Assembly: GCF_016785945.1 (NCBI RefSeq)
Contig: NZ_JAEMEF010000002.1
Coordinates: 310,001 to 374,000, forward strand
From: Olleya sediminilitoris
GTDB lineage: Bacteria; Bacteroidota; Bacteroidia; Flavobacteriales; Flavobacteriaceae
Length of the DNA stretch: 64,000 nucleotides
Direction: 5' to 3'
Shown here one piece after another: positions 7,250 through 27,809 of this stretch. The notes under the pieces were generated by a model. That model saw nothing but the letters and a program-made list of their open reading frames with translations. It was not told the origin of the DNA and searched no databases. How positions within the stretch are numbered: position 1 is the stretch's first letter; each line of letters starts with the position of its first letter. The position numbers and the translations under genes are program-made.

Positions 7250-8016
7250 AAGATTTTACAAGGAGTATAACACATTCGTTTAAACATTATAGTAGTTATA
7301 ATAGAAAAGTAAATAATAAAAAAGGTAATCTTAGCGCTATTGTAGAGAAGAAGATTTATTCTAAAGATATTTTAAAATATGAAAAAGGTCTTTTATCAAA
7401 AGTATCTAAAAATAGGTATGTTGATGATAATTTTATATGGCAAAAGTATGATAAGTGGGGAACGACTTTTATAGCAGGTGGTGTATCACTAGGATTCTTG
7501 CTAATAATTTTAAGACACGCTTTTAAGGAAGGATTTAGCAACAGTTATGTTTTTTTTATTTTAATTTTTTCTATCATTATTTTATTTTTTGTTATTTATA
7601 GTTTTACACAGCCAAAAAAAGAGCAAATATTAAACCGTAGAGATGGATTGATTACGATGACAGGTTTTTTTTGGCAGAAAAATATTACAATGCGTTTTGA
7701 TGATGTAATATTTGTTTTCTCGTCTGGTGGAGAAGACGTTGTAGGTGGATATCAATTGATGGTATTAAGACCCACTATAGGAGCCGATATATTTGAGCTT
7801 ACTGGTAATTGTTATACAACAATGTCTTTTATTACTTGGTATATGGATAAAAATAGACCTTTACCACCAGGAGAAGCTTTTGATCGTTTTCGAGAACAAG
7901 ACTTTGAACGCCGTAAAGCTGAAGGTTTTCCAAAGCCTTTATACCCGAGTAAAATAAAAACCCCAGAGGCAACCAAAGCTCAGCAAGCAGAACGTAAACG
8001 CATTGGTGGATGGTAA
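7243..8016 (+). CDS. Two-TM membrane protein, probable immunity protein (copy 1)
   Basis: 257 aa. A basic N-terminus (about 1-70) is followed by two close hydrophobic segments (about 78-95 and 101-122), then a soluble domain containing KKEQILNRRDGLITMTG and an Arg/Lys-rich tail ending KRIGGW. The ATG overlaps the toxin stop by 7 bp (shared bases ATGGTAA), implying translational coupling. Immunity to VasX-type toxins is provided by membrane proteins, so immunity is the simplest reading, but I know no named family. The next gene is a paralogue: the N-terminal ten residues and the C-terminal 70 are almost identical, whereas the membrane segments and the middle differ. Confidence 0.65.
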   Translation: MVKDFTRSITHSFKHYSSYNRKVNNKKGNLSAIVEKKIYSKDILKYEKGLLSKVSKNRYVDDNFIWQKYDKWGTTFIAGGVSLGFLLIILRHAFKEGFSNSYVFFILIFSIIILFFVIYSFTQPKKEQILNRRDGLITMTGFFWQKNITMRFDDVIFVFSSGGEDVVGGYQLMVLRPTIGADIFELTGNCYTTMSFITWYMDKNRPLPPGEAFDRFREQDFERRKAEGFPKPLYPSKIKTPEATKAQQAERKRIGGW

Positions 8017-11031: not shown

Positions 11032-11140
11032 TCACCTGTTATTTAGAGCTTAATTATATGCCAAAGGATTAGCATACACATGACATGATTATATCCTTTT
11101 TAAACTGAAACCTAAATCCAACCTTATAATATTATTACCT

Positions 11141-12754
11141 ATGAAATCAACCATTTACTTAAAATCGCTTTTTACGATTACGACCCTTCGCTTATTTTGT
11201 CTATTGCTTATTGGATTGATTATGTCCTCTTGTAATGAGGTACATTATGAAGGCATCCCTTCACCAGTTATTTTTACACCTAATATACCTGTAGATGTTG
11301 ATCCTGTATTACAAAACGAGTTAAAAGCAGCAGGTGATATTTACCAGTTAAATCAAGCGTATAACCTTTATAGTTGGCAAGCTTTAATTGCTATTAATTG
11401 GCCAATGACCGATGATGGCATCCCAAAACCTAAGTTTACAGACGCAGGATCACCTGCATGGTTAGGATGGAAAGAAGCTTTTCAAGTATATAGGGAAGAT
11501 GGACAACAACCGGCAGCTTGGGGTAGTCCAAGAATTCAAACCGGTTTAGGATTAACGTCTAGTTTGCTTAAAGACAGTGATTCTAGAGTGATATTAAGTA
11601 CTAGAACTCCGACACAACCAGCACATCATAATCTAGCAGATGAAACGGATCAGGCATTTGCAGGTAAATTATTTGATCAGAATGGAGAAGTTGTTGTTTA
11701 TGAAGTATTAATGAATGAAGTGGAGTTTGATTACATTGTAGCAAACAAACTGTATAATTTAAACGGTCAATTAGAATTTACTAAGACCCAAACTGAAGCT
11801 AATTTTCCAAAGGGAAACTATGATAATGGCACACTTGGTGCTACAGAAATAAAACTAGCATGGCGCGTTTTTAAGCCAACTGATTTGCATCAAAACCGTT
11901 ATTTAACAGATGAGGGTTATATTATTGATGAAGTTACAGGGCAACCTAAGCAAGTGCGTCTTGGTTTGATTGGTTTTCATATTAGTCAGAAAACACCAAC
12001 CGGTAAGCAATGGGTATGGTCTACTTTTGAGCATATAGACAACTTGGATGAAAATGTTATTGTAGGTGCCGATGGTAAGACTACCGTTATACATCCTACA
12101 CTGACAGATCCTGATTGCGAAATTTGTCCTGTTAATGTTGATGCTACTAATGGCAACAGTACTTATATGTACCAAAGTTCTGAGCATAGTGACTATTGGA
12201 CAATAACAGGTGATACAAATAACTATTATGCTGCATCAGATACCATGAAAACGCAATCTAAGCGCATGGTGGATATTCCTGTTAGGGTTAGAGAAATTAA
12301 TAGAAAGATGCAAGATTATTTTAAGGCACAAGGTAGTGTATGGCAATATTACCAATTGATTGATACACAATACCCTGTGAACCAAAATGCAAAACCTGCT
12401 ACAAGTACTGCAACAGCATACCATTTACCAGAAAGTGTGATTAATAAGTCGGGAGGAGTGCCAAATATAGCTTACCTGACTAATATTACTATGGAAACTT
12501 TTTTTCAGGATGGTAATCAAATTGCTGGACTTATGGAAAACTCGACGTCTGAAGGAACTGCTTTACCATTAAGCATCTTTGGTACCGAAAGTTGTATAGG
12601 TTGCCACTCTAGTGCTGGTATTGCTGTGTCCTATGACAGCACAACCTCAGCACCTAAATTTGGAGGGCAATTGTCTGGTGACTTTAGTTGGTTACTTAAA
12701 AGAGCCAACTGGGATACCTCGTTACCAAAACCAACTATTAAAGCAGAAGAATAG
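11141..12754 (+). CDS. Lipoprotein with one C-terminal c-type heme site
   Basis: 537 aa. The signal sequence ends in a lipobox (IMSSC, Cys31), so it is exported and lipid-anchored. A single heme-binding CIGCH motif (C485, C488, H489) lies near the C-terminus, followed by a short Ser/Gly-rich region. The long middle carries no domain I can name; it contains a SWQALIAINWP segment typical of cytochrome-annotated hypothetical proteins found in some proteobacteria and Bacteroidota. It follows the tyrosinase by 109 bp on the same strand. A role as electron-transfer partner in phenol oxidation is plausible, but the tyrosinase shows no export signal, so the compartments would have to be reconciled. 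Confidence 0.75.
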   Translation: MKSTIYLKSLFTITTLRLFCLLLIGLIMSSCNEVHYEGIPSPVIFTPNIPVDVDPVLQNELKAAGDIYQLNQAYNLYSWQALIAINWPMTDDGIPKPKFTDAGSPAWLGWKEAFQVYREDGQQPAAWGSPRIQTGLGLTSSLLKDSDSRVILSTRTPTQPAHHNLADETDQAFAGKLFDQNGEVVVYEVLMNEVEFDYIVANKLYNLNGQLEFTKTQTEANFPKGNYDNGTLGATEIKLAWRVFKPTDLHQNRYLTDEGYIIDEVTGQPKQVRLGLIGFHISQKTPTGKQWVWSTFEHIDNLDENVIVGADGKTTVIHPTLTDPDCEICPVNVDATNGNSTYMYQSSEHSDYWTITGDTNNYYAASDTMKTQSKRMVDIPVRVREINRKMQDYFKAQGSVWQYYQLIDTQYPVNQNAKPATSTATAYHLPESVINKSGGVPNIAYLTNITMETFFQDGNQIAGLMENSTSEGTALPLSIFGTESCIGCHSSAGIAVSYDSTTSAPKFGGQLSGDFSWLLKRANWDTSLPKPTIKAEE

Positions 12755-12778
12755 TATCACCTTTAAACCGTACTTTAT

Positions 12779-13243
12779 ATGGCACCTTTAAAAACAACAA
12801 CCTGCGCTTGTGGCTCTGCAACTGATTTAAAAGAAACACCTGGTCAAGGCAGTAAAAAGATTAGTGTTTTAAATGGTATATCCGTTGTGTTTTTATTCTT
12901 TTTTCCTAAATGTCCACTATGTTGGGCAGGCTATGCGTCACTTTTTAGTTTTATAGGCTTAGAGCGTATTGATTATAATGCTAATTGGCGATTTGTTATT
13001 ATTGGATTGCTATTGACTGGTAGTTTTTTAATATTGCGGAAGCATTATTTGAATAAATCATGGTTAAACCTTATGTTTTACGGTTTAGGGCTTTTTATTT
13101 TGCTTCTTACATCTATAGCTAATTTAAGTGCGTCCTTTTGGCTTTATATTATTCTTTTTTTAATACTGTTAAGTAATTTTTCTAAGCAGACTAACCATAA
13201 GCTAATTAAGTTTTTTAGACTTCCTTCTTTTTTTTGGGGCTAG
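12779..13243 (+). CDS. Small membrane protein with Cys motifs (MerC/MerT-like)
   Basis: 154 aa with four hydrophobic segments (about 35-60, 73-90, 99-118, 120-137). It begins with a CACGSA motif and has PKCPLCWAGY inside the first membrane segment. A CxxC pair in the first membrane helix with further Cys residues before it recalls MerC/MerT-type metal permeases, though overall similarity looks low. It lies 24 bp after the cytochrome lipoprotein gene and probably belongs to that unit. Copper supply to the tyrosinase is a hypothesis only. Confidence 0.6.
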   Translation: MAPLKTTTCACGSATDLKETPGQGSKKISVLNGISVVFLFFFPKCPLCWAGYASLFSFIGLERIDYNANWRFVIIGLLLTGSFLILRKHYLNKSWLNLMFYGLGLFILLLTSIANLSASFWLYIILFLILLSNFSKQTNHKLIKFFRLPSFFWG

Positions 13244-13409
13244 AGGAGGAGGAGGTATATAGCTTCTATTTGTTTTTAAATAAATGATTGACAAACCATT
13301 ATGATTAGGCGTCTTATATATATAAGCTTTGGTTGTGAGGATGAATCTTACTAGAATATTTAAAATATAAGTCGTTATTTAGTGCGTATATTTATTATAT
13401 TACTGACTT

Positions 13410-13429
13410 TTTGTATATACATTAGTACT
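13410..13429 (+). promoter_or_regulatory. Candidate promoter of the AsmA-like gene
   Basis: TTTG (13410-13413) is followed directly by TATATACATTAGTACT; the last 14 bases repeat those at 3034-3047. The TA of a canonical TAnnTTTG is missing, so the -7 assignment is weak, but the shared initiation-region motif supports promoter function. Its 3' edge is 21 bp before the ATG. Confidence 0.4.
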
Positions 13430-13450
13430 AAATAGTCCCAATATAATAGT

Positions 13451-16400
13451 ATGAGGTTAAAATTTTTAAACAAACGAAAGTTCTGGTTGCGGTTTATTGC
13501 TTTAATAATCTTAGTACCGTTACTATTTTTTAGTGCAGTTGTATTATATATTTATTCAGAACAAGATGAAATTATTCAAAATGAAATAGCTGTTTTGAAT
13601 ACTCAGCACCAAGGTTTAATTACGATTGGTGACACCCACTTATCGCTTTTTAACAACTTTCCGGATATTTCTTTTAAGGTCGATGATGTAAAGATTTATG
13701 AAACTAAAGACACTAAAGTAACTCCAATTCTTGAGGTTGCAGACATCTATACAGGTTTTAATATATGGGATATTATAAACGGAAACTATACCATTAGGTC
13801 GCTAATTATAGAAGACGGTTTTTTTGATATTGTGGTACATAAGGATGGTACTATTAATCTTCAAAATGCTTTAGACTCATTAGAAGACACAGAAACATCA
13901 ACCAATGATGACTTTGCCAATATCCAACTAGAACGTATTAAATTACAAAATCTTGACATACATAAAAAAGATGAAACTGAAAATACAGATTTAGAAACCT
14001 TTATATCTCAAGGAAAAGGAGGGTTTGAAATAAATAAGGACTTTATATCTGCACATATAGATACCGAGTTTGAAATGAATTTGATTGATAATGGCGATAC
14101 CACATATGTGCGTCATAAGCATTTTGAGCTTCATACCGATCTGACACTTAACCAAAATACAGGATTGCTTACTGTTAAACCTTCAGGTTTAAAAATGGAA
14201 CACGGTGATTTTAATATTGAAGGCACTATAGATACTAAAAATGATGTAGATCTTGATCTTTCTATAAAAGGAACCAAGCCCAATTTTGATATGCTAATTG
14301 CTTTTGCACCAGAAGATGTTATTCCTGTTTTAGAACGCTACCGTAATGCCGGAAACATCTATTTTAATGCTATGGTTAAAGGTCCTACACTAAACCAACA
14401 AATGCCCTTTTTTGATGTGCGTTTTGGAGCTAGTGAAGCTTTTCTTGAAAATACAGATAAGGGTAAACGTGTTGATGATATGGGCTTTAGTGGGCATTTT
14501 ACTAATGGAAAAGACCGACATTTACGTACCATGAAATTCTCTTTAACAGATATGACTGCCAAACTAGATAAAGGGACGTTTTTAGGTAATCTTGTTGTTG
14601 AAAATTTTGAAGCGCCAGAAATTAACATGCAATTAAATGTAGATTTTAATCTAGAGTTTATGGCTAGTTTTCTTAATCTTACAGATATAGACAACACGTC
14701 TGGTAATGTGTCTTTAGAAATGAATTTTCATGATATTATTGATATAGACCATCCAGAACTTGCACTTAACACCCTTAATCAAGCTTATTTTACAGAGCTT
14801 AAAGTTAGCAATCTAAGTATCTCTTCTGCAGATCTTCCTGCACCATTACAACAACTTAATGCGCACCTTATCATGAAAGGTAAACAAGCCACGCTTGATC
14901 AGTTTGATATGATATTAGGTAACTCTGATGTATCCATCACAGGATATTTATCTGATTTTCCTGCTGTTGTACATCATACAGATACACCTGTAGATGCGCA
15001 TTTAGACATTACCTCAAATCTCCTTGATATTGCAGAGCTTACACGATATTCTGTAATAGACAGTACAGGTGTAGATGAACAGATTAAAAATTTAAGTACT
15101 GGTTTTTCTTTTAAATCTTCGGCTAAAGCCTTTACAGAATCTAAATACTTGCCAAAAGGCGAATTTTTTATAGATAGCCTTCATGCCCAACTTAAACACT
15201 ATCCGCATGAATTGCATGATTTTCATGTAGATTTTCTTATTGGCGAAAAAGACCTGAACATTGTAGATTTTACAGGTTATATTGATGATTCAGACTTTCA
15301 TTTTAATGGACAAGTTTATAATTATGGTTTTTGGATGCAAGACCAACTTAATGGAGATGTAGATTTAGATATAACGTTAACCTCAGATTTATTACGATTA
15401 GAAGATGTTTTTACTTATCAAGGCGAGAATTATGTCCCAAAAGAGTATCGTCATGAAGAGTTTGAAAAACTAGTCTTACACCTTAACTCTAGTATGCATT
15501 ACAAGGACTCTGCATTACATTCTATAGATTTAGATCTTGATAAACTAGATACCAAAATGCATTTGCATCCTTTACGATTCCAAAATTTTAATGGTCGTTT
15601 TCATTATGAAGATGAACATCTTGTGATTGAAAAATTTAATGGTAAAATAGGACGTACAGTTTTTGGAATAGACCTTAACTATTATCTAGGAAATGATGAA
15701 GCTATTAAGAAACGTGACAACTATCTTGCTTTGCAAGCAAATTATATAGATTTTGATCAGCTTTTCAATTTTAATACTTCAGCTCCAACAGCCACTACAA
15801 TAACAACCACTAAAACAGATACTGAAACTGCAGATGTTAAAGTGCATGCAGACGCATTTAACTTGTATGAATTACCCTTTACAGATATGACCTTTGATGT
15901 TAATGTTGGTCATTTTATATATCATCGTATTGACTTACAACATATTGATGCACAATTTAGAACGACACAAAACCATTATATCCATGTGGATACTTTTTCT
16001 ATGAATGCAGCTGGAGGTAACTTTAAAATGTCAGGCTATTTTAATGGAAGTGATCCAAAACATATTTACATGAAACCAGATTTAGTAACAGAGCATGTTG
16101 ATATAGATAAACTACTGTTTAAGTTTGAAAACTTTGGGCAAGATCATTTAGTGTCTGAAAATTTAAAAGGTACGGTGTCTTCACATATAACAGGAAACAT
16201 TAGGGTGTATCCTGATTTAGTACCAGATTTGGATCAATCAGAAATTCATATGGATGTCGAGGTCTTTAATGGTAAATTACAAAATTATGACCCTATATCT
16301 ATGTTATCGGATTATATGGGTGATAAAAACCTTAGAAATATAAAATTTGATACCCTTAGGAATCATCTAGATATTACTAATGGACGTATAACCATACCTA

Positions 16401-16690
16401 ACATGACTATTGAATCTACACTTGGACATTTTGAGTTTTCCGGTACACAGGATAGTGATCATAATATTGAATATTATGTAAGAATCCCATGGAAAACAGT
16501 AAAACAAGCCGCACGTTATAAATTATTTGCTAGAAAAAATGATAACGGTAATACAGAAGACATGGAGGAGGAAGATATTATAGAACTTGATCCTAACAAA
16601 AAAGTACGCTACCTTAATATTAAATTACATGGTAGCATGGATGATTTTAAGGTATCCATGAAGAAGGCGAAAAAAACTGAAACGGAATGA
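13451..16690 (+). CDS. AsmA-like / TamB-type envelope protein
   Basis: 1079 aa. One N-terminal membrane anchor (about 12-33) after a basic tail is followed by a very long beta-rich region in the periplasm. The start of that region (GDTHLSLFNNFPDISFKVDDV and then IIEDGFFDIVVHKDGTINLQNAL) is the AsmA N-terminal signature. The C-terminal part (GRITIPNMTIESTLGHFEFSG, then YYVRIPWKTVKQAARYKLF) is typical of large flavobacterial AsmA-family proteins. Relatives are bridge-like lipid transfer or outer-membrane biogenesis proteins. It is monocistronic, with its own promoter region and a shared terminator hairpin with the convergent gene. Composition is not unlike the core genes, so it may be older than the toxin cluster beside it. 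Confidence 0.85.
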   Translation: MRLKFLNKRKFWLRFIALIILVPLLFFSAVVLYIYSEQDEIIQNEIAVLNTQHQGLITIGDTHLSLFNNFPDISFKVDDVKIYETKDTKVTPILEVADIYTGFNIWDIINGNYTIRSLIIEDGFFDIVVHKDGTINLQNALDSLEDTETSTNDDFANIQLERIKLQNLDIHKKDETENTDLETFISQGKGGFEINKDFISAHIDTEFEMNLIDNGDTTYVRHKHFELHTDLTLNQNTGLLTVKPSGLKMEHGDFNIEGTIDTKNDVDLDLSIKGTKPNFDMLIAFAPEDVIPVLERYRNAGNIYFNAMVKGPTLNQQMPFFDVRFGASEAFLENTDKGKRVDDMGFSGHFTNGKDRHLRTMKFSLTDMTAKLDKGTFLGNLVVENFEAPEINMQLNVDFNLEFMASFLNLTDIDNTSGNVSLEMNFHDIIDIDHPELALNTLNQAYFTELKVSNLSISSADLPAPLQQLNAHLIMKGKQATLDQFDMILGNSDVSITGYLSDFPAVVHHTDTPVDAHLDITSNLLDIAELTRYSVIDSTGVDEQIKNLSTGFSFKSSAKAFTESKYLPKGEFFIDSLHAQLKHYPHELHDFHVDFLIGEKDLNIVDFTGYIDDSDFHFNGQVYNYGFWMQDQLNGDVDLDITLTSDLLRLEDVFTYQGENYVPKEYRHEEFEKLVLHLNSSMHYKDSALHSIDLDLDKLDTKMHLHPLRFQNFNGRFHYEDEHLVIEKFNGKIGRTVFGIDLNYYLGNDEAIKKRDNYLALQANYIDFDQLFNFNTSAPTATTITTTKTDTETADVKVHADAFNLYELPFTDMTFDVNVGHFIYHRIDLQHIDAQFRTTQNHYIHVDTFSMNAAGGNFKMSGYFNGSDPKHIYMKPDLVTEHVDIDKLLFKFENFGQDHLVSENLKGTVSSHITGNIRVYPDLVPDLDQSEIHMDVEVFNGKLQNYDPISMLSDYMGDKNLRNIKFDTLRNHLDITNGRITIPNMTIESTLGHFEFSGTQDSDHNIEYYVRIPWKTVKQAARYKLFARKNDNGNTEDMEEEDIIELDPNKKVRYLNIKLHGSMDDFKVSMKKAKKTETE

Positions 16691-18606: not shown

Positions 18607-19653
18607 ATGAAAACAATCCTTATTCAATCTATTGGAACAGCTAAACCCGGAATTACTAAAATCTTAGCAGATGCATTTGAAGTCAATCATCAATTATTAA
18701 CACAAATGATTTATAACGCACCTAGTGTGTTTTTACATAAAGTAGATGAAGCCACTGCTGATAAAGTAAACGGTATGCTTACTGAGTTAGGCTTAGAAGT
18801 ATTGGTTCAGAACGCTGATGTTGCTATTCCTGGTCCTGCTGAAAAACTTGACTTAGCCCTTTATATAGATGATCCACTTAACATTCAGAATATAGCACAA
18901 CAACTGTCTGAGTTTATGGGCATCAATAACAAAGAAGCATTTGAATTGTTAATTCAGGATCCCTCTGTAGTACTTGGAGGTGTTAGTAAAAATACCGCTA
19001 TAGCACTAGAAAATAGAGTAGATGCAGAAGTTATAGTAAGTAACCCTTTAAAGGCTACTTATACTATATTAGTTAAAGACTACACACCAACTTTTATTAA
19101 TGAGTTTAAGTTATTATGTCAAAATGCTGGATATACATTAGACCAGAATAAAATAACGGGACTTACCCATAAAGAGGCACAAAAGCTATGGACTAAAGTA
19201 CAGGACCCTCAAAAAATAAAATTAGTTAATGAAGATTTTATACGCTATAGAATCATTCTGAATGCTTTTGATGCTAACAATGAAGCCTCTGTACAATTCT
19301 TAAAAGAACAGATAGGTATGCCTACAGAGTTAATTGGCAGACTAAACGATTATTTACCCCTTGAAATTGTTGAAAGCCTTTCTAAATGTAAGGTAGAATC
19401 CTATTTAGAATTAACAACAGCAGCTGCTTTAGACTGTGAGAGTCATGTAAATTCAGTAGATAGATACCAGTTACAAATTCAAAATATCACACAGAAAGAA
19501 CAAGTAGAACAAACATTGGATCTATTTTTTAAGACTGTAGACATTAAAGATACCAAATGGCAAACTCCAGAAAAGCTAGACAGTGTGCTTAATCGTTTAC
19601 TATCTAAACAATTAGAAGCCTTGGGTTGTGATGTAGAACCTATTTATAGTTAA
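18607..19653 (+). CDS. Protein of tandem ribosomal L7/L12 C-terminal-like modules
   Basis: 348 aa, soluble, no signal peptide. Residues 2-70 (KPGITKILADAF, APSVFLHKVDEATADKVNGM, LGLEVLV) follow the strand-helix-helix-strand plan of the L7/L12 C-terminal domain, including its APxxxxxxVxxxxAxxxxxxLxxxGxxVxV pattern. The unit repeats at about 79-147 (DPSVVLGGVSKNTAIALEN) and, more diverged, at about 150-212, 213-280 and 285-348. Such modules mediate protein-protein contacts. It is the first gene of an operon of ten with gaps of 2 to 44 bp or short overlaps, ending at 27809. Function unknown; a scaffold or chaperone for the other products is a guess. Confidence 0.75.
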   Translation: MKTILIQSIGTAKPGITKILADAFEVNHQLLTQMIYNAPSVFLHKVDEATADKVNGMLTELGLEVLVQNADVAIPGPAEKLDLALYIDDPLNIQNIAQQLSEFMGINNKEAFELLIQDPSVVLGGVSKNTAIALENRVDAEVIVSNPLKATYTILVKDYTPTFINEFKLLCQNAGYTLDQNKITGLTHKEAQKLWTKVQDPQKIKLVNEDFIRYRIILNAFDANNEASVQFLKEQIGMPTELIGRLNDYLPLEIVESLSKCKVESYLELTTAAALDCESHVNSVDRYQLQIQNITQKEQVEQTLDLFFKTVDIKDTKWQTPEKLDSVLNRLLSKQLEALGCDVEPIYS

Positions 19654-19658
19654 GCCCT

Positions 19659-20210
19659 ATGGACAATACTAATTTACATTACAATATTGCAGAACAAGGT
19701 AAAGTATTTGCCACACAAGGTAATCACAAAGAAGCCTTGAGGCATTATAAAGAAGCGTTGCGCATGTCTCAACAGATTCCTCAAGCGGATATATTCTTTC
19801 AACATTACAGTCAATGTGCAATGGAAAGCTTGGAACAGATGAAATCCTACCTAGAGGTGATTACATTTTGTGATAAATGCATTGCCTTTATGGAGTCCAA
19901 AGAGGACTTACAAGCGCATCCTGTTTTTATGAAGTATTTAGCGTCCTTATGGGAACGTAAAGGCATACAGTATTTATACCTCAACGATAAAGAAGATGCT
20001 ATAACTGCATTTGAAAAAGCAATAGCCATCCAGAAGCCTAGTAAAATCCCTTTGGCTCAAGAACTACATAATTGGTGTAAAAGAGGCTATACTATTAGTC
20101 AGCAACAAATAGAAGGCCTTAATAAAAAGCATCACTATTATATTGTTAGAAAAGACACTATAAACTCTAAAATAGCAATAGAATTACCAGAAATGATCAA
20201 TCCATTATAA
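19659..20210 (+). CDS. TPR-repeat protein
   Basis: 183 aa, soluble. Residues 5-35 (YNIAEQGKVFATQGNHKEAL, then RHYKEALRMS) form a standard TPR helix pair. More pairs follow around 45-75 and 90-125, including KEDAITAFEKAIAIQ. TPRs bind other proteins, so this is probably an adaptor or assembly factor for the operon. It starts 5 bp after the L7/L12-like gene and ends 11 bp before the OmpA-fused gene. The last 50 residues are not TPR-like and are unassigned. Confidence 0.8.
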   Translation: MDNTNLHYNIAEQGKVFATQGNHKEALRHYKEALRMSQQIPQADIFFQHYSQCAMESLEQMKSYLEVITFCDKCIAFMESKEDLQAHPVFMKYLASLWERKGIQYLYLNDKEDAITAFEKAIAIQKPSKIPLAQELHNWCKRGYTISQQQIEGLNKKHHYYIVRKDTINSKIAIELPEMINPL

Positions 20211-20221
20211 TTAAAAAACAT

Positions 20222-21796
20222 ATGTCAAACGTAACAAAAATTCAAGAAGGAGCAGCAGTACTACAACAAGTAGATGTTAGTGATATTTTCACTTCCTTAG
20301 CTATGGGTATAGCAGATGCCCAAAAGAAGTTAGATGATAATTCTATCGCTCAAATCACAAAACTAGCCAATACCACATTAGGCGATAAATCGCTATTAGA
20401 ACTGGGTTTTGCACCAGCATTCTATAGTTTTACCTATGCAGATATTAGCGCTAACATTCATTTAAAAATGAAAATGAAAGACGAGTTTGCGCTATCTGTA
20501 CAAGTGGACGCCACTTATAACTCTGGAAAACAAGGAAAAGACAATTATAAAAACGTTGAAAAAGAGAAAGCATTTAATTCTGAAAAGAGTAGTTTTAAAT
20601 CATCACGAAAGTTTTTAATGAAAAGCAGTACCAAGAATGCTATTGTTATAAATGACAATCATTATAAACTAGATGAAAGTATAGGTATTGTTTCTAGAAT
20701 AGATGAGTTTCATTCTAAAATTATCCAGTCACAAGATGTAGAACGCTTAAACTATTCGGTATTACAACAATTTGTTACTCGCTATACACCGTCTACAGAT
20801 TTTACAATACTAAAGATTACAGACTATTTAGATGTTACTGTCATTAATGACGGAACAACTGTACTTACTTTAGATACTGATCTTTCTACTACATTTTCAA
20901 CTTCTGGTGGAGTCTACGGTTTTTCAGGACAGCTAATTTATGGTTCTACAGTAAGTCCTAAGGATTTAGAATTCCATTTTGGATTTGATAAACGCATCCT
21001 CAATTTTAATTATGCAGAAGGTACAATAGACAATGCAGGAAAAGACGCAGAGTTTGAGGCATTGGCTTCTATTTTAAGAGAAGATGATACTGCAAGTATT
21101 GTTATTAAAGGCTATACCGATAGTAGTGGTGCAGATGCCTACAATATAAATTTATCTAAAGACAGGTGTGAAGCCATGCGTGATTATCTAGTAGCCCAAG
21201 GTGCTAGAGCCACACAAATACAGATTGAACCGAAAGGGGAAACTTTAGCTAGAGCCAATAGTGGTCCTGATGACACTAAAAATGAGGTGTTTAGAAAAGT
21301 AAGCATCGCCATTACTTCTGGAGCAGATTATATTTATTTTAGTTCTGAGTTAAATGGAGCTACTCCTGATACTGGAGCTAATTACTTTATCACAAATTCT
21401 AATAGTAGTCTTGAAATCTCATCATCAGCAGAAGATATAAGCGACTATTGGACAGAAGAAAGACATGGTATTGACTATTACCTAGATAAAGAGACTCAGA
21501 TAGAGTTTTCTGCTTATTCTAAAACAAGTGAATCTATTAATATTTCAAAAGAAGAGGAAGAAGGCTCAGTAGACGAAGTGAAAATAGCACAAAGTGAAAG
21601 CACTAGTCAATTATTATCTGATAATAGTGGTAATTCTAAATCAGATCAAACTGTTGCTTTAGGATTGAATGTTGATTTACGCATGTCTAAGCAATTTGAA
21701 ATGTCTGTAGAGGGTAATTCGTCAATGTCGGCACGTATGGTTGCGTTACCACCACCAGATGGATTTTTAAAGTACGTAGACTCTCTAACTGAATAA
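20222..21796 (+). CDS. Operon-family domain split by an OmpA-like peptidoglycan-binding domain
   Basis: 524 aa. Residues 15-90 carry the shared family start: MGIADAQKKLDDNSI and then LGFAPAFYSF. Residues about 475-524 carry the shared family end with ARMVALPPP. Between them is an OmpA-like domain (about 250-365) with GYTDSSG and LSKDRCEAMRDYL. D300 and R315 are 15 residues apart, the spacing of the OmpA residues that bind diaminopimelate in peptidoglycan. The insertion thus sits inside a domain that is contiguous in the paralogues. No signal peptide or lipobox is visible, although OmpA-like domains normally act in the periplasm. The next gene starts 2 bp later. Overall role unknown; peptidoglycan contact is inferred from the domain. 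Confidence 0.8.
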   Translation: MSNVTKIQEGAAVLQQVDVSDIFTSLAMGIADAQKKLDDNSIAQITKLANTTLGDKSLLELGFAPAFYSFTYADISANIHLKMKMKDEFALSVQVDATYNSGKQGKDNYKNVEKEKAFNSEKSSFKSSRKFLMKSSTKNAIVINDNHYKLDESIGIVSRIDEFHSKIIQSQDVERLNYSVLQQFVTRYTPSTDFTILKITDYLDVTVINDGTTVLTLDTDLSTTFSTSGGVYGFSGQLIYGSTVSPKDLEFHFGFDKRILNFNYAEGTIDNAGKDAEFEALASILREDDTASIVIKGYTDSSGADAYNINLSKDRCEAMRDYLVAQGARATQIQIEPKGETLARANSGPDDTKNEVFRKVSIAITSGADYIYFSSELNGATPDTGANYFITNSNSSLEISSSAEDISDYWTEERHGIDYYLDKETQIEFSAYSKTSESINISKEEEEGSVDEVKIAQSESTSQLLSDNSGNSKSDQTVALGLNVDLRMSKQFEMSVEGNSSMSARMVALPPPDGFLKYVDSLTE

Positions 21797-21798
21797 TT

Positions 21799-22248
21799 AT
21801 GGGAGCTATAGCCACTATAACAAATTCAATAACCAATGCGCCTTTACATCAAATGATAGAGCAAATGGGTATATCTGTTGCCAATGCACAAGCTGCCTTA
21901 GATGAGAACTCTATTAAAACGCTAAAGGCACTTGCAGAAAAAGGTGTTGAGATTAATGGAGAAACGACCAATTTATTATTACTAGGATTTGTACCCACTT
22001 TTTATGCCTTTACTGAAGCTAGTTTTGAAATGAAAATGGAATTTTCTATGGCAGAATCAGAAGCTTTTTCAGTAGGTGCCAGTGTGGAAGCTGATTTTGG
22101 TATAGTAGCCGCATCAGTAAGTGCGTCCTACAGTCGTAAGTTTGATCAGTCAGCCAGTGGCTCTTCTAGTATTGCAGCTAGAATGGTGTCGCTACCACCA
22201 CCAGAAAACCTATTAGAAAAGTTAAAAACTATCAAACCAGAATTATAA
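21799..22248 (+). CDS. Minimal member of the operon's paralogous family
   Basis: 149 aa. It is the simplest member and defines the family: an amphipathic N-terminal helix (MIEQMGISVANAQAALDENSI), a LGFVPTFYAF motif near residues 68-77, alternating beta-strand segments (FEMKMEFSM, VSASYSRKF), then GSSSIAARMVSLPPP near the C-terminus. No signal peptide or membrane segment. The layout (AQ-containing helix, GF-x-P motif, pre-terminal VPLPPP-type segment) faintly recalls DUF2589, but I would not assign it. Adjacent paralogues on both sides point to local duplication. Confidence 0.8.
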   Translation: MGAIATITNSITNAPLHQMIEQMGISVANAQAALDENSIKTLKALAEKGVEINGETTNLLLLGFVPTFYAFTEASFEMKMEFSMAESEAFSVGASVEADFGIVAASVSASYSRKFDQSASGSSSIAARMVSLPPPENLLEKLKTIKPEL

Positions 22249-22292
22249 ACACAGTCATACAATACACATAAATAACAATTAAACATTAAAAG

Positions 22293-23066
22293 ATGAATTT
22301 ACGTAACAAACCAAGAATTGGACAGGAATTACTAGATGTGCCGATGGGCAGCATGATTCAGCAAATGGCTATGGCTATAGCCGAAGGACAAATGGCATTA
22401 GATGCCAACTCTATAGACGTAGCAGAAATGATGGGAGGACTTAAAACCATTACAGATGATGAGGGTAATGTGACCTTTGAAGACAGTCGTGTCTTTTTTG
22501 GCCAACAAAAGTTTACATCTACACAAGCTGTTACCTATTTAAATAGTGGAGAAGCCTCAGTCTATGAGCAAAACAAATTAGTAGAAGACTTAAAAGTAGG
22601 CGCTTCTTCTGGAGCATTAGCAACAGAAGCTGATGGTGTTTATACCCTTACAACAGCAGGAACAGGGTCATCAGTAGAGATTAATGTGCCTAGAAGACTA
22701 TCTATGATGGAGTTAGGGTTTACACCAACCTTTTATCAATTTGTAGATTCTATTATAGAAGTAAAAATAGCTATTAAGTATACCCAAGAAGGTTCTTCAA
22801 CGGTTGATATTAATCGATCAACCACTAATAAAAGTAGTCGCGGTGTTGGTGGAGGAGTCGCTAAGTTTTTTGGTAGTCCTAATGCAAGTAAAAGTACTGT
22901 TAGTACCTCTCAGGTTAATGCTAGCTACTCTCAAAAATACAGTTACTCTGCAGAAGGAAGTAGTCTATTGAGAACCAAACTAGTTCCTATTCCGCCACCA
23001 GCAGTGTTGGAAGAAAGAATTAGAAAGATGATGGACGAAGAATTTACAGAAACACCACCACAGTAA
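22293..23066 (+). CDS. Paralogous operon-family protein with a central insertion
   Basis: 257 aa. It shares MAIAEGQMALDANSI, LGFTPTFYQF and RTKLVPIPPP with its neighbours. Compared with the 149-aa member it has an insertion at about 55-135 of acidic and Gly/Thr-rich sequence that ends in a predicted strand (SSVEINVP). It is closest to the following gene: both have VPxxxMIxxxxxxIAExQxALD, ASYSQKY and RTKLV. No signal peptide. The 44-bp gap before it is the largest in the operon and could hold a minor promoter or processing site. Confidence 0.8.
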   Translation: MNLRNKPRIGQELLDVPMGSMIQQMAMAIAEGQMALDANSIDVAEMMGGLKTITDDEGNVTFEDSRVFFGQQKFTSTQAVTYLNSGEASVYEQNKLVEDLKVGASSGALATEADGVYTLTTAGTGSSVEINVPRRLSMMELGFTPTFYQFVDSIIEVKIAIKYTQEGSSTVDINRSTTNKSSRGVGGGVAKFFGSPNASKSTVSTSQVNASYSQKYSYSAEGSSLLRTKLVPIPPPAVLEERIRKMMDEEFTETPPQ

Positions 23067-23092
23067 ACAATACATAAATTAAATACGATCTT

Positions 23093-23599
23093 ATGAACAT
23101 AGGTAAAGAATTATTAAACGTGCCATTTCCGCAGATGATTAAAAATTTGGGAGTTGGTATTGCTGAGGCACAATATGCCTTAGACAGAGTATCTATTCGT
23201 ATTGCGCAAATGATGAGTGGTCACAAGCTTAATGCGGATGGTGAAATGGAGAAAGATGACACCGCCTTAATCGTATTAAAAGATGGAGAGTCGGGTGTAA
23301 GCTTATTAGCTTTAGGTTTTACACCCACTTTTTATCAGTTTGTGGAATCTTATATTTCTATAAAGATGGACATGCGTTTTCAAGAAGACCGAGATTTAAG
23401 TCTTTCGGCAGAAGTTAAAGCACGCTATAGTACAGGTTTTACTAATGTGTCTGCAGCAGTTAACGCTAGCTATTCTCAAAAATACCAATTTGAAGCCAGC
23501 GGAAGCTCAGAGCTTAGAACCAAGCTAGTTACTGTGCCTGTTCCGGTTATATTTGAAAGTCGTTTACAAGCTTTATTAAAAGAAGACTCTGGAAGTTAA
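23093..23599 (+). CDS. Paralogous operon-family protein
   Basis: 168 aa. It has the family helix GVGIAEAQYALDRVSI, the LGFTPTFYQF motif, ASYSQKYQFEASGSSELRTK, and PVPV where others have PPP. It lacks the long insertion of the preceding paralogue. Soluble, no signal peptide. The PTFYQF(V/D) and ASYSQKY blocks are shared with the preceding gene, marking a recent duplication of that pair relative to the other members. Confidence 0.8.
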   Translation: MNIGKELLNVPFPQMIKNLGVGIAEAQYALDRVSIRIAQMMSGHKLNADGEMEKDDTALIVLKDGESGVSLLALGFTPTFYQFVESYISIKMDMRFQEDRDLSLSAEVKARYSTGFTNVSAAVNASYSQKYQFEASGSSELRTKLVTVPVPVIFESRLQALLKEDSGS

Positions 23600-23620
23600 C
23601 CCTAATCGTTACACTATTTT

Positions 23621-24754
23621 ATGGCTAAAAATTGGAAAACATTATTGCCCAAAGCACCAGATCAAGCGACTGATCCAGCATTAGATTTAAAGGCGTCCCT
23701 TGAAGATTTAGTACACATTGATGATACGCTTAAAAGCTTAATTACCGAGCGTGAAGCTTTGGAGCAACAGATGAAAACGTTAAGTGGTGAATCTGATGTT
23801 ACAGACACACCAGCTAATAGCCATTTTGAACAGCCCATTGACTCCTTTAAAACCAAACGAGAACAAGACCAAAAGCGGTTTGAAACCAAACGACAATTAG
23901 AAGACAAAATTGCTGCCAAAAAGCTAGAGTTTAAACATTGGGAAAAGCAAAGGAACGCTCTGAAATTAAAAGTTATTACCGCCAAAAAGCAAGTAGAACG
24001 CGCTAAGGCTTTTAAGAAAGCCATAAAGAGCGATGATTTTGAAGCCAGATGGGAGAAACAACGTGAGACTTTTAAAGCTAAAGTCCTAAAAAAACCCAAA
24101 GATTTATGGTCAGAGCAAAGAGATACACCCAAAGACAATTGGTCAGAACATCGAGACCAACCTAAAGCTAATTGGGAAGAAAACAGAGATAGACCCAAAG
24201 CACCCATTCTATCTAAACTAAAAGATTCGGTAGTTAGAAAAGCCACTAAAAAAAGCCAACCAAAACCGAAAGCAAAAACAATAAAAGACCGATGGGAACA
24301 ATTAAGAGATCAACAGCGGGAAGCTAAAAAGCTAAAGGCTAAGTCTGAGAAAAAATGGGATGACTTTCAAAAACAATCTTTAGTAGATTCTTTTGACGTG
24401 ATACCCAAGGAGGGGAGTAATGACTTTAAGTCCTTTGAAAACGATTTTAAAGCATTAGCACAACAAGAGAAAGATGCTTTTGAGCAGAAACAAGAACAAT
24501 TAAAAGCGAAACTAAAAGCCAAAGCGAAGGCGACTAAATCTTCGTTAACTAATCAGAAGCAAAAAGAGGCTAAGCAGGAAGAGTCTAAAGCCCAACGCCA
24601 ACAAGACAAACAAGCCGAAGCGAAACGAGAAGAGGACAGAAGACAAAGACAGATTAAATCAAGAGACGAGAAGAAACAAGCGCAAAAACGAGAACAACAA
24701 CGTGAAGAACGAAAAGAAGCACGTCAAAAACGTAAAAAAGACAAATACGCATAA
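23621..24754 (+). CDS. Highly charged coiled-coil protein with 11-residue Trp repeats
   Basis: 377 aa, dominated by Lys, Glu, Gln and Arg, predicted almost wholly helical. Aromatic anchors recur in the motif W-x-E/K-x-R-D/x: W107, W144, W163, W174, W185 and W225. The 163/174/185 set is spaced exactly 11 residues (SEQRDTPKDN, SEHRDQPKAN, EENRDRPKAP), a hendecad-like period. The C-terminal third is a continuous Lys/Arg/Gln-rich helix ending in RKKDKYA, which could bind nucleic acid or an acidic surface. No signal peptide. Two bp separate it from the next gene. Probably a filamentous or spacer component of the operon's assembly. Confidence 0.75.
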   Translation: MAKNWKTLLPKAPDQATDPALDLKASLEDLVHIDDTLKSLITEREALEQQMKTLSGESDVTDTPANSHFEQPIDSFKTKREQDQKRFETKRQLEDKIAAKKLEFKHWEKQRNALKLKVITAKKQVERAKAFKKAIKSDDFEARWEKQRETFKAKVLKKPKDLWSEQRDTPKDNWSEHRDQPKANWEENRDRPKAPILSKLKDSVVRKATKKSQPKPKAKTIKDRWEQLRDQQREAKKLKAKSEKKWDDFQKQSLVDSFDVIPKEGSNDFKSFENDFKALAQQEKDAFEQKQEQLKAKLKAKAKATKSSLTNQKQKEAKQEESKAQRQQDKQAEAKREEDRRQRQIKSRDEKKQAQKREQQREERKEARQKRKKDKYA

Positions 24755-24756
24755 TT

Positions 24757-25491
24757 ATGAGTCAAGCAAATAATAGCTCTTTAGCATTACATGACATTTT
24801 ACTATCCATAGCTGATAGTCTTAATGTGGCACAACACCAGTTGAGAAATATGTCACCTTATGACGAGTATGGACGACCAAATACCTTATACCAATTACCA
24901 TACTTGGATTTCTCTTTAGAGGTGATTAGTGAAGTTGCTAGTGAAACCGAGTCTACAACCCCATCTAATGCACGTCTTGCTACACCAGAACTAGCAAAAA
25001 CTACTGCATTTACAAAAAGCAATGTGATGACGCAACAAAGTCATCAAGCCTTAGTCTATAAACTACCGACTACGACACAAAACAAAACCAGTAACGACAG
25101 TGCTTCCAATAAAATTACCAGTACCATTTCGGGACGGTTTGTTGCTGTAATGCCCAATGAAGGCGTTCCGCAGGTCTTTATTGTGATGTCTGCTGAGCAA
25201 ATTTCGGCTACAGCCTACACCTTAAAAGTCACGTTAACTTATGCCACCAATGAACCTGTTGTTGGACAAAAGGTAGAGATCAATTTTGACGAAGCGACTT
25301 CATTAGCATTAAATGATACTGCGACCAGTATTACACCACCTTCATTTTCGCCATCAAAAGAAGGATTTACAAATGGTGCTGGCGTTTATGAAACCAACAT
25401 AACCATTGCCTCAGGCGATGTCAACAAAACGATAATTTTTGTAGCCAACAGCGGAACTATTTTTACCTCTGTAGCTATTAGCAACACATAA
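24757..25491 (+). CDS. Divergent operon-family start fused to a bacterial Ig-like domain
   Basis: 244 aa. The N-terminus (HDILLSIADSLNVAQHQLRN, then LPYLDFSLEV) resembles the helix and strand opening of the paralogous family without the GFxPTFY motif. A low-complexity Ser/Thr/Asn linker follows (about 60-125). Residues about 140-244 look like an invasin-type Ig-like domain (LKVTLTYATNEPVVGQKVEI, then GVYETNITI). The order of parts suggests an anchor, a linker and a displayed Ig-like module, but no signal peptide is present. Start 2 bp after the coiled-coil gene. Confidence 0.65.
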   Translation: MSQANNSSLALHDILLSIADSLNVAQHQLRNMSPYDEYGRPNTLYQLPYLDFSLEVISEVASETESTTPSNARLATPELAKTTAFTKSNVMTQQSHQALVYKLPTTTQNKTSNDSASNKITSTISGRFVAVMPNEGVPQVFIVMSAEQISATAYTLKVTLTYATNEPVVGQKVEINFDEATSLALNDTATSITPPSFSPSKEGFTNGAGVYETNITIASGDVNKTIIFVANSGTIFTSVAISNT

Positions 25492-25495
25492 TATT

Positions 25496-27103
25496 ATGCC
25501 ACTCAGTAAACTAAAACACATACGCATTGATTTTTCATTATATGATGAAAAGAATAAGCCTAAAGCCAAACTACCTATATTTATTCAGTATTATGAGGTT
25601 ACTACCAATGCCTGGATTTCTATATATGTTGCCGATATTGTTAAAGGGGTTTTAAGTATAGAAGAAACGACTAAGTCTAGAGCCAAAGCCTTATTGTCTT
25701 TTTTTAAGATTTTAAAAAACAATCAAATCCCAGAGCTGCGTATTATTGCACAGAAAACCCTTTATACATTAGATCAATTTCAGGTTTTAACGTCCTTATA
25801 TGCTTTTCATTTTGATGAAGAACAAAGTGTTTTGCATTTTGATTTTGGTACTGCTTATTTGTTACCAGAGGCTATATTAAAAGAACAACAAGGCTTTACA
25901 GACTTTATTGTGGTGACTTCGCCATACTCGTTTGCGTATGACAACCAACTACTTGATAAATCTTTACAACAATGTCTTACTAAAACCAAGACGTTAGAAG
26001 CTAGTTTAGCCAAAACTAAGACTCAGTTAACTGCAAAGCAAAAACAATATACTGAGGTTGCTAATACGTTAAAAACAGCAACTAAAACCCATACCGATTT
26101 AAGTCAAGCACATACTGATTTAGAAGCTAATTTTAAAAGTTTAGCGACTGATGCTAAGGATTGCCAAGAGGAAAAAGAAGCTTTGCAAGCCGCATTAAAT
26201 GACGCGCAACAAGCACTAGAAGCCTTACATGAAAAAAATACTAAATTACAGACACAAAATGAATCCCTTACCACTTCTTTAAATGAAGCTAAACAAGATA
26301 TAGAACGTTTAACGCCTTTTGAAGGACTGTACGAAGCGTCACAAAAGGAGTATGCTGCTTTAAACGGAAATTACACCGAGAGTATACAAGCGCTTGAGCA
26401 TTGTGCAAAAGGGTATACCGCTTTACAAGAGGCCTATGCACAGCTACAAAAAGAACAACAAGATTGTTTAGAACAATTAGAGACCTGTAGTGCGGAAAAA
26501 GCACAATCTGACAAGGAACGCTTGGAAGCCAACGCAGCGTTAGATGCGCTAAACACCAAATACAATACAGCTGTAGAGCACTTAGGCAACAAAACAGAAG
26601 AGGTTGCACAGTTACAATTAAAAATAGACGAACTAAGTAAGGAAGTCGCTTTTGATTTACGACCAATGCCAGTTAGTGGTGTGTATACCAACATAGTTAA
26701 TGAGATACAATTAGCAGACAACCTAAATAACAGTGACTATAAGCTGTCTAATATTCAGTTAAAAATTAAGTCGTTAGTTAATCGAGATCAAGATGGCGTC
26801 AATTTGCAGTTTTTAAACCATGAAACCGCTAAGGAGATTAATGGAAACTCTATTAGTGAAGTGGTCTTGGATATAGAAAGTGCCCCAAGAGCCGTTAGCG
26901 AACCTGGTAAGTTACCTAATTTGATTGGTTTTACAGAAACCGCTGTAAGACGTATTTTAAGCAATCAAGGTTTGCGATTGAATCCTGTTTACCAAAAGCA
27001 GAGTACTGTACCATCAGGAGAATCTTTTAAGCAGAGTCCAGCAGTAAACAGTACGATTCAGAATAATCAATTAATCACCGTAATATTTAGTAAAAATGAG
27101 TAA
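25496..27103 (+). CDS. Coiled-coil protein with C-terminal PASTA domain
   Basis: 535 aa. Residues 1-150 form a globular alpha/beta region of unknown family. About 160-390 are a long coiled coil rich in Lys, Glu, Gln, Thr and Leu, with regularly placed Cys in KDCQEE-type segments. About 400-465 form a conserved-looking beta segment, and 473-534 are a PASTA domain (LPNLIGFTETAVRRILSNQG). PASTA domains bind peptidoglycan or beta-lactams in other proteins. No signal peptide or membrane helix exists to place it outside. It overlaps the last operon gene, also PASTA-ended, by 8 bp. Confidence 0.75.
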   Translation: MPLSKLKHIRIDFSLYDEKNKPKAKLPIFIQYYEVTTNAWISIYVADIVKGVLSIEETTKSRAKALLSFFKILKNNQIPELRIIAQKTLYTLDQFQVLTSLYAFHFDEEQSVLHFDFGTAYLLPEAILKEQQGFTDFIVVTSPYSFAYDNQLLDKSLQQCLTKTKTLEASLAKTKTQLTAKQKQYTEVANTLKTATKTHTDLSQAHTDLEANFKSLATDAKDCQEEKEALQAALNDAQQALEALHEKNTKLQTQNESLTTSLNEAKQDIERLTPFEGLYEASQKEYAALNGNYTESIQALEHCAKGYTALQEAYAQLQKEQQDCLEQLETCSAEKAQSDKERLEANAALDALNTKYNTAVEHLGNKTEEVAQLQLKIDELSKEVAFDLRPMPVSGVYTNIVNEIQLADNLNNSDYKLSNIQLKIKSLVNRDQDGVNLQFLNHETAKEINGNSISEVVLDIESAPRAVSEPGKLPNLIGFTETAVRRILSNQGLRLNPVYQKQSTVPSGESFKQSPAVNSTIQNNQLITVIFSKNE

Positions 27104-27809
27104 TCCGATCCAACAATTTAGTGACATATTATCAGGTCCATTAGGCGAATTAATAGCCTCTATAGGTCGAGGCGTAGGCGAGGCACAGTCAGCTTTAGAC
27201 GAGGGCTCTTTACAACAAACCTTAGCGCTTTATACGATAGATGAGCAAGCAGAAGCTAGTGCAGCAACCGATACGACTACGGATGCTGAGACAGCTGTAG
27301 GTAACGACAACCAACGTTTGTTGGAATTGATTAGAAGTATAGGTTATCAACCTACGTTTTATGTGATACCAGAAACAGAAGTAGAAGCGAAGGTCTCTTT
27401 AAACATGGATTTATCCAACAGTCAGAGTTTACCATTATCGACTTCTTATAAGACTGCCAAATACAGAGCCAATGTGACCCCTTTAAATGCTAATAATGTT
27501 AACCAATACAATCTAAATGCTAATGCAGCAGCTACTTTAAAGTTTAAAATTGTTCCGGTACCAGCACCAAGTGGTGTTGCAGAAAAGCGCATTATGCCAG
27601 ATTTAGTTGGTAGACCTTATGATGACGCTACCAGAGGACTTATGGCGTCTGTAGGATTAAATCATACATTAGACGATGCCTCTAACACACTTTTAGAGGC
27701 TAATCCTAGTACTATTTTAACTATTACCGACCAAAATATTGTAGCCCATACTATTATTGAAGTTGACACTATTATTGAACTTAGCTTACAACTACCAGAA
27801 CTTGATTGA
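27096..27809 (+). CDS. Paralogous operon-family protein with C-terminal PASTA domain
   Basis: 237 aa. It has the family helix GRGVGEAQSALDEGS, the motif IGYQPTFYVI near residues 83-92, a beta section with Asn/Ala-rich repeats, and FKIVPVPAPS in place of VPIPPP. A PASTA domain (about 166-232, MPDLVGRPYDDATRG) replaces the usual short tail. No signal peptide. It closes the operon and is followed by a strong terminator. Together with the preceding gene it gives two PASTA-ended products, which could let two different subunits bind the same cell-wall ligand. Confidence 0.8.
   Translation: MSNPIQQFSDILSGPLGELIASIGRGVGEAQSALDEGSLQQTLALYTIDEQAEASAATDTTTDAETAVGNDNQRLLELIRSIGYQPTFYVIPETEVEAKVSLNMDLSNSQSLPLSTSYKTAKYRANVTPLNANNVNQYNLNANAAATLKFKIVPVPAPSGVAEKRIMPDLVGRPYDDATRGLMASVGLNHTLDDASNTLLEANPSTILTITDQNIVAHTIIEVDTIIELSLQLPELD

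Follow-up and report, generated by a model that had tools for sequence, protein, structure and literature searches.

In the present study, we analyzed a 64,000-nucleotide stretch of Olleya sediminilitoris DNA (contig NZ_JAEMEF010000002.1; hereafter, the window) and focused on an operon of ten genes, g1 to g10, at positions 18607–27809, in which all open reading frames (ORFs) are on the plus strand. The gene products fit the subunits of a putative multi-protein assembly that corresponds to no named system. We tentatively read this assembly as a hetero-oligomeric complex that is put together in the cytoplasm and acts on peptidoglycan, a reading to which we give slightly less than an even chance. 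The idea of a multi-subunit assembly goes back to a first-pass annotation of the same DNA; it agrees with the recurring gene order and set, the different fused domains, and the lack of a match in family libraries. However, the remote link to DUF2589 suggested in the same annotation found no support.

The first-pass annotation described ten same-strand genes with gaps of 2–44 base pairs (bp) or an 8-bp overlap, and the ORFs were found exactly at those places. The gaps are, in order, 5, 11, 2, 44, 26, 21, 2, and 4 bp, followed by the overlap. Relatives were collected by scanning 84,980 species genomes with an alignment of the paralogues, the seed being one peptide pattern, which gave 143 candidates, 80 of which were kept; the other genes of the set were located in these 80 loci by iterated hidden Markov models (HMMs), one for each of g1 to g10. 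The annotation had tied its proposal to a recurrence of the gene order in other genomes, and the order does recur: g1 to g10 stand in the same order in 59 of the 80 loci, 49 of which have no extra labeled gene. Among the other 21, 15 run off the end of a contig, L058 and L060 deviate only through overlong ORF calls, L079, L088, and L091 deviate in the order count because their g3 slot holds a short paralogue, and the only rearranged locus of the 80 is L090. According to the record titles, the loci belong to Bacteroidota, Pseudomonadota, Myxococcota, SAR324, Gemmatimonadota, Verrucomicrobiota, Balneolota, and Latescibacterota; the last five are each represented by one metagenome-assembled contig.

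The operon family is rare overall. It was found in one of 120 genomes of the same taxonomic family (the own genome itself), in four of the 395 genomes sampled from its phylum (besides the own genome, three that have a stripped version), and in two of 40 relatives, namely, the own genome and G730, the nearest whole relative and one of the nine further genomes from the genus. The corresponding counts were 9/193 in Myxococcota, including the genome on which that search was centered (G327), 1/398 in Pseudomonadota, and 1/296 in Actinomycetota; in the latter two, the hit was the genome at the center of the search, and the Actinomycetota case (L048), on a 5.8-kilobase contig, may be mis-binned. The presence of one order across eight named groups, yet in only approximately 0–5% of sampled genomes, is a strong sign that the ten-gene set is one functional machine. 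A FastTree tree of six concatenated genes (70 rows, long branches flagged) separates Bacteroidota from most Pseudomonadota, and the operon therefore seems to be of old origin, with losses or infrequent transfer. In L023 (CP034120.1, named Glaciecola amylolytica), the genes downstream of the operon fall into clusters with their counterparts from three Fluviicola (Bacteroidota) loci, and the operon itself groups beside the Fluviicola operons; this record looks misnamed or mixed.

The five paralogues of one domain that had been noted at first were confirmed. The products of g3, g4, g5, g6, and g10 align across the whole domain with 13 invariant columns, which include Q31, L34, D35, S38, L62, G63, P66, F68, Y69, V130, P133, and P135 (numbering of the 149-amino-acid member, g4). 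A search of the own genome with this member recovered the other four (23093, E 2.5e-14; 20222, 1.1e-7; 22293, 1.9e-5; 27096, 6e-4); the sole match beyond the operon had an E of 0.23, and 24757 (g8) was not recovered. The first-pass annotation stated that 24757 shares only the start of the domain, which needs correction because the whole domain is shared. An hhalign comparison of the g8 family with the g10 family covered 143 columns with a probability of 96.5 and a P of 9e-10 (0.01 for the reversed control), and the g8 family against all paralogues combined gave a P of 1.6e-7. The comparisons of the g8 family with the g4, g5, and g6 families singly were weak (P 0.0016–0.006) and did not surpass that with the unrelated g9 family (0.0015). 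Judged from the sequences, the paralogue count is six, with g8 as a divergent member.

The fold of this domain was modeled for g3 and g4. The AlphaFold2 (AF2) model of g4 (mean predicted local distance difference test score [pLDDT] 68.5; predicted template modeling score 0.49) has a helix at residues 16–47 and strands at 68–91 and 110–132. The model of g3 (mean pLDDT 76.5) has a helix at 20–50 and strands at 67–86 and 491–509, with pLDDT below 50 at 83–110 and 468–499. The whole stretch between the two g3 strands, including an OmpA domain, occupies the place of the g4 hairpin tip. In a hydropathy scan (uncorrected), hydrophobic and polar residues alternate in the top-scoring windows of the paralogues. 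No solved relatives of g4 and g8 were found by sequence.

The OmpA domain of g3 scores 49.4 bits in Pfam, above the cut-off of 27.2. A search of solved structures with the g3 family profile hit Pal/OmpA domains (best E 5.7e-21), and Foldseek against Pal/OmpA structures gave template modeling scores (TM-scores; target length) of up to 0.86. D300 and R315, which we take to be the usual peptidoglycan-ligand residues of OmpA domains, are conserved in 49 and 53 of 54 g3 members, respectively. Since some g3 proteins lack the insert (173–218 amino acids in L080, L084, and L093; the short ones in the g3 slot of L079, L088, and L091), OmpA is a module set into the predicted hairpin. PASTA is found at amino acids 472–533 of g9 (Pfam E 4.5e-7; 30.2 bits against a cut-off of 23.2). 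The g10 of the window has a weak PASTA match (E 0.031; 14.7 bits against 23.2), and 44 of 54 g10-family members have a match with an E of 0.01 or less (best 3.9e-18). With an E threshold of 1, 26 of 55 g8-family members match the Ig-like domain Big_1 (best 1.4e-6); the g8 of the window has no Big_1 match in Pfam. An extra paralogue after g10 in one locus (L092:18204–20423) is fused to LamG-type lectin domains. Because OmpA, Big_1, and LamG occur in different paralogues, we suggest that one scaffold domain displays different binding modules. The cell-wall domains, which had escaped the first-pass annotation, give a functional clue. L095 also has an extra paralogue after g10 (15652–16581), and an extra g9-family gene follows g10 in L070, L080, L083, L084, and L087, of which four are Myxococcota and one is from Gemmatimonadota. 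Within one Bacteroidota genus, three genomes gave two paralogue matches each. The stripped version in genome G235 (L124:2293–5243) has four genes: two paralogues, a g8-like gene without the Ig-like part, and a coiled-coil protein that resembles g9 without PASTA (by eye).

These models also bear on an alternative in which the products form a self-acting envelope machine that docks at the inner membrane, spans it with the hairpins as a heteromeric beta-barrel, and uses periplasmic OmpA and PASTA domains to remodel or open the cell's own wall. The long amphipathic hairpins, the position of OmpA between hairpin strands, and the L12-like and TPR proteins, which would suit a cytosolic base, are consistent with this, as are the many beta-stem pores among the top matches of the g4 model (mean pLDDT 68.5) to solved folds. 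However, these Foldseek matches are not significant (0/135 at E up to 0.001; best E 0.38), and a large folded insert at the hairpin tip would be hard to move across a membrane. Furthermore, few flank clusters are common to distant loci, and transporter genes adjoining the operon recur mainly among close relatives (Caulobacter and Halomonas). We regard the envelope machine as rather unlikely.

A murein hydrolase gene lies beside the operon in 9 of the 80 loci, and three kinds were recognized by Pfam: Amidase_2 (L016, L044, L071, L073, L082, L088, and L091), Peptidase_M74 (L093, with PG_binding_1), and GH108 (L095, with PG_binding_3, 17 bp after the extra paralogue gene). In L016, the database locus nearest to the operon of the window, an amidase with two SH3 stretches lies 16 bp before g1. 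In L044 and L071, both of which have a serine in place of D300 in g3, an amidase with SH3 lies 2 bp after g10 (in L071, through similarity to L044). The amidase is fused to a CobU domain in a single ORF in L073 and L082 (the latter through similarity to L073), and L088 and L091 have two amidase-like proteins and one, respectively. Among 67 downstream proteins from 61 loci, Amidase_2 was found in seven (six loci) and PG_binding_1 in four (two loci); L079 has two proteins with PG_binding_1 only and L037 has SH3 only. In the upstream set, PG_binding_1 was found in 2 of 69 proteins, presumably those of L046 and L089, where PG_binding proteins adjoin the operon (on the opposite strand in L089); their other halves look like an M15 peptidase and a TIGR02594-type hydrolase. 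With nine such proteins as queries, phmmer turned up five more among all the ORFs of the loci, every one at the operon edge; the queries had themselves been picked at the edge, and the hydrolase counts given here are raw, not enrichments over a background. In the first 60 residues of 14 adjoining hydrolase or peptidoglycan-binding proteins, no clear signal peptide was found by hydropathy (top 15-residue mean 1.48, in L079).

The proteins of the window likewise showed no signal or transmembrane segment by hydropathy (top 19-residue mean 1.35), no dedicated signal-peptide predictor being used. A cytoplasmic shell, filament, or storage structure that uses OmpA and PASTA as mere building blocks, the hydrolase neighbors being incidental, would agree with the lack of clear export signals, the fact that most loci show no hydrolase, and the stripped version in L124, in which no OmpA, PASTA, or Ig-like domain was recognized by eye. 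However, three catalytic kinds of hydrolase at the operon edge seem unlikely to be an accident, Amidase_2 is present downstream in 6 of the 61 loci scanned, and the OmpA ligand residues are conserved. We consider such a structure improbable.

The endolysin-like hydrolases without an obvious signal peptide at the operon edge are also what would be expected if the operon were a reduced relic of a phage tail or another phage structure that was domesticated by bacteria. A predicted viral protein resembles g4 (BFVD A0A516MP19, 178 amino acids; Foldseek E 2.8e-5; TM-score 0.61 by query and 0.52 by target), and the coiled coil of g9 matches a tape-measure family (E 4e-8). However, the tape-measure match may reflect composition. 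Moreover, g4, g6, and g8 had no match in 50,697 phage records, nor did the paralogue of the stripped L124 version or a DUF2589 protein. A scan of viral contigs, which sees two peptide patterns only, gave no match for g4, the L124 paralogue, or a DUF2589 partner protein and one match for DUF2589 itself; plasmids gave one distant g4 match (Sphaerotilus, 31% identity). PHROGs yielded no significant tube, sheath, capsid, or portal family, and the operon tree broadly follows the bacterial phyla. A phage relic is thus very unlikely in our assessment.

The operon changes unevenly. Between the window and G730, protein identity is 80–89% for four core neighbors, 99% for g4, 96% for g6, 97% for g8, 64% for g5, 69% for g10, and 83–90% for the others. 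The divergence of g5 falls mostly within one segment (12–24% protein identity against 76–100% around it), where no DNA can be aligned (22510–22693), with flanks that are approximately 90% and 86% identical. In 14 further close pairs, g6 ranked in the top three genes for conservation every time, as did g4 in 11 of the pairs. A clear dip in the middle of g5 (25-residue windows below 60%, with near-full identity around) was found in seven of these pairs; the dip was weak or unclear in three (L024/L026, L068/L075, and L044/L071) and absent in four (L021/L029, L030/L031, L083/L087, and L073/L082). The segment is 16–130 amino acids in length (62 of 79 sequences with findable borders). It has the look of an exposed region or of one that sets specificity; a more mundane explanation would be relaxed constraint.

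The features of the operon are listed in Table 1. The first-pass annotation included an L7/L12-like repeat protein, a TPR protein, and two coiled-coil proteins among the remaining products. The TPR protein is g2. A match of g1 to Ribosomal_L12 exists (E 9.2e-5), but its 23.1 bits are below the Pfam cut-off of 25.9; the g1 family is present in 75 of 80 loci. A coiled coil was seen in g7 by eye and in g9 through family matches; the C-terminal PASTA of g9 had been overlooked. g7 has no Pfam match at E up to 1 and is little conserved, being found in 5 loci in the first HMM round and in 76 of 80 after iteration.

Table 1. The ten-gene operon and its parts (positions in the window)
Feature	Position	Strand	Description
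g1	18607–19653	+	348 amino acids; repeated domains like the C-terminal domain of L7/L12; presumed scaffold
g2	19659–20210	+	183-amino-acid TPR protein (Pfam TPR_2, E 6.4e-11)
g3	20222–21796	+	Paralogue; large OmpA-bearing insert splits the hairpin (alignment, AF2)
OmpA domain in g3	21005–21277 (amino acids 262–352)	+	Pfam E 6.1e-13
g4	21799–22248	+	Minimal paralogue, 149 amino acids; predicted helix and long beta-hairpin
g5	22293–23066	+	Paralogue; hypervariable segment between helix and hairpin
g5 hypervariable segment	22510–22693	+	blastn against G730 breaks at 22509/22694
g6	23093–23599	+	Paralogue (alignment, own-genome search)
g7	23621–24754	+	Highly charged coiled-coil protein (by eye)
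g8	24757–25491	+	Divergent sixth paralogue; Ig-like C-terminal part (Big_1), assigned from family members only
g9	25496–27103	+	N-terminal beta domain (by eye), coiled coil (family matches), C-terminal PASTA
g10	27096–27809	+	Paralogue with C-terminal PASTA-like region

We speculate that the peptidoglycan-acting complex would be built as follows. The products of g3, g4, g5, g6, g8, and g10 would each be a helix followed by a long amphipathic beta-hairpin, and the six paralogues may pack laterally into what is probably a ring or stem with a fixed set of subunits. The L12-like repeats of g1, the TPR protein g2, and the coiled coils of g7 and g9 would serve as scaffold and assembly factors. As displayed modules, g3 would carry OmpA between its hairpin strands, g9 and g10 would carry PASTA, and g8 would carry the Ig-like part. 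The hypervariable segment of g5 is the likeliest seat of target or partner specificity, and in some genomes, the operon-adjacent murein hydrolase may be the wall-cutting partner. Because no export signal was seen, we infer that the complex would reach peptidoglycan through release by lysis or by penetrating an envelope. Tailocins and tail-associated lysins reach the wall in these ways.

A number of observations weigh against this proposal. OmpA and PASTA domains are normally extracytoplasmic, and no export route or lysis gene was seen. Some relatives have a 19-residue hydropathy mean of at least 1.6 (18/76 for g1, 11/74 for g8, 8/77 for g3, 7/81 for g4, and two each for g2, g9, and g10; 50 sequences in total). 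D300 is replaced by serine in five of the 54 OmpA domains (L044, L049, L067, L071, and L072), the OmpA insert is missing in at least six loci (L079, L080, L084, L088, L091, and L093), and the g3 slot of L092 consists of two short pieces. The hairpin tip of g4 is poorly modeled (residues 88–117 with pLDDT below 50 in AF2). On their contigs, 11 of the 80 loci lack g10 and 5 lack g1. No adjoining hydrolase was recognized by eye at the operons of the window and G730 (with Pfam for the two neighbors in the window), and, save for the probable ones of L046 and L089, the remaining 71 of the 80 loci yielded none. Furthermore, we know of no experiment on any member of this family.

The flanks were also searched for a common cargo or regulator, and this candidate was rejected. 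Two-component proteins (kinases and response regulators grouped) form a flank cluster in just 13 loci, 122 bp to approximately 4.9 kilobases away, and were taken as optional; Response_reg was found in four and LytTR in two of the 69 upstream proteins. ABC-type ATPases form a flank cluster in six loci, which, similar to the two-component cluster, is mostly kilobases off. In L080 and L084, glycosyltransferase family 2 genes (4976–7285 and 6289–7662, respectively) overlap the start of g1 by 4 bases. A four-gene block at 9343–16690 of the window, with 80–89% protein identity between the two genomes, precedes the operon here and follows it in G730 (L130 and L131); therefore, the operon or the block has moved. 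A promoter and terminator scan gave 40 promoter-like sites (shuffled mean 43.0) and 8 terminator-like sites (shuffled mean 5.9).

A more specific form of the proposal is a new class of non-contractile, wall-attacking bacterial nanodevices, with a hetero-hexameric beta-hairpin stem that is made from the six paralogues in the cytoplasm, is aimed by the hypervariable g5 loop, grips peptidoglycan with OmpA and PASTA, and carries an exchangeable murein hydrolase. This form is speculative, and we hold it to be unlikely. If the operon does encode a true peptidoglycan-targeting device, it would stand as a further class next to tailocins and injection systems and would supply new parts for binding and cutting the wall. 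Moreover, six different paralogues offer a testable case of hetero-oligomeric assembly.

Pfam, PHROGs, NCBIfam, and PADLOC contained nothing that matches the ten-gene set; the main family-library signals in the ten proteins were the OmpA, PASTA, TPR, L12, and coiled-coil matches. A description of the operon was not found in open-access full text, which is weak evidence of absence since the queries were mostly many-term and subscription journals lie largely outside this literature. The remote similarity to DUF2589 that had been guessed at first was not supported: no paralogue of the window matches this family, and one of 58 g4-family members does at an E of 0.13. Membership in DUF2589 (PF11655) by profile (gathering cut-off 23 bits) was rejected, with no match in the own genome; the search was positive in nine other genomes. 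The hhalign values for g4 against DUF2589 (P 3.6e-4 with a 58-row alignment and 1.5e-3 with a fuller one) compare with 3.8e-3 for a reversed g10 control, and all paralogues combined gave a P of 8e-3. The DUF2589 sets, such as L096–L100, are alike in being uncommon cassettes (9/198 genomes of the phylum), in an N-terminal helix motif and beta strands, and in having more than one such gene in some genomes. Besides the DUF2589 protein itself, these five loci contain another protein whose N-terminal helix and strand look similar; several also have a helical protein of approximately 180 amino acids. However, the DUF2589 sets differ in giving no significant profile match and in having other partner genes (by eye), and no OmpA or PASTA was noticed in the stretches read. 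Their layout resembles that of the stripped L124 version, but profile tests gave no connection; they are possible distant cousins of the operon.

The passages on DUF2589 in one paper report that the related archaeal genes AF0414–AF0417 are induced on lactate (PMC3949148), and passages in two others present Trypco2 (PF19631) as an adaptor domain of conflict systems (PMC7159879, PMC10907252); the ten-gene operon is not described in these passages. Four of 55 g8 members match Trypco2 weakly at E up to 1 (best 0.023). However, the g8 of the window has no match, and Trypco2 itself is present in 2 of 25 operon-bearing genomes.

Zorya ZorB, MotB, and Pal share with g3 an OmpA-like peptidoglycan-binding domain. 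They differ in that the g3 of the window has no transmembrane segment by hydropathy and carries OmpA within the hairpin of a paralogue; in Zorya, the ZorB match is limited to the OmpA part (E 3.3e-7), and no ZorA/MotA family was found among the ten proteins. Regarding R-type tailocins and extracellular contractile injection systems, no significant sheath, tube, baseplate, or AAA+ family was found in the ten proteins with Pfam and PHROGs. Since these defining parts were sought and not found, the operon does not belong to the tailocin or tail-tip families. The putative complex, with no sheath, tube, or ATPase found, would resemble a phage tail tip or tailocin in logic only. These systems have in common with the operon a conserved gene cluster, structural proteins that are made in the cytoplasm and lack signal peptides, modules that bind peptidoglycan, a fast-changing segment, and, in some loci, lysin-type partners.

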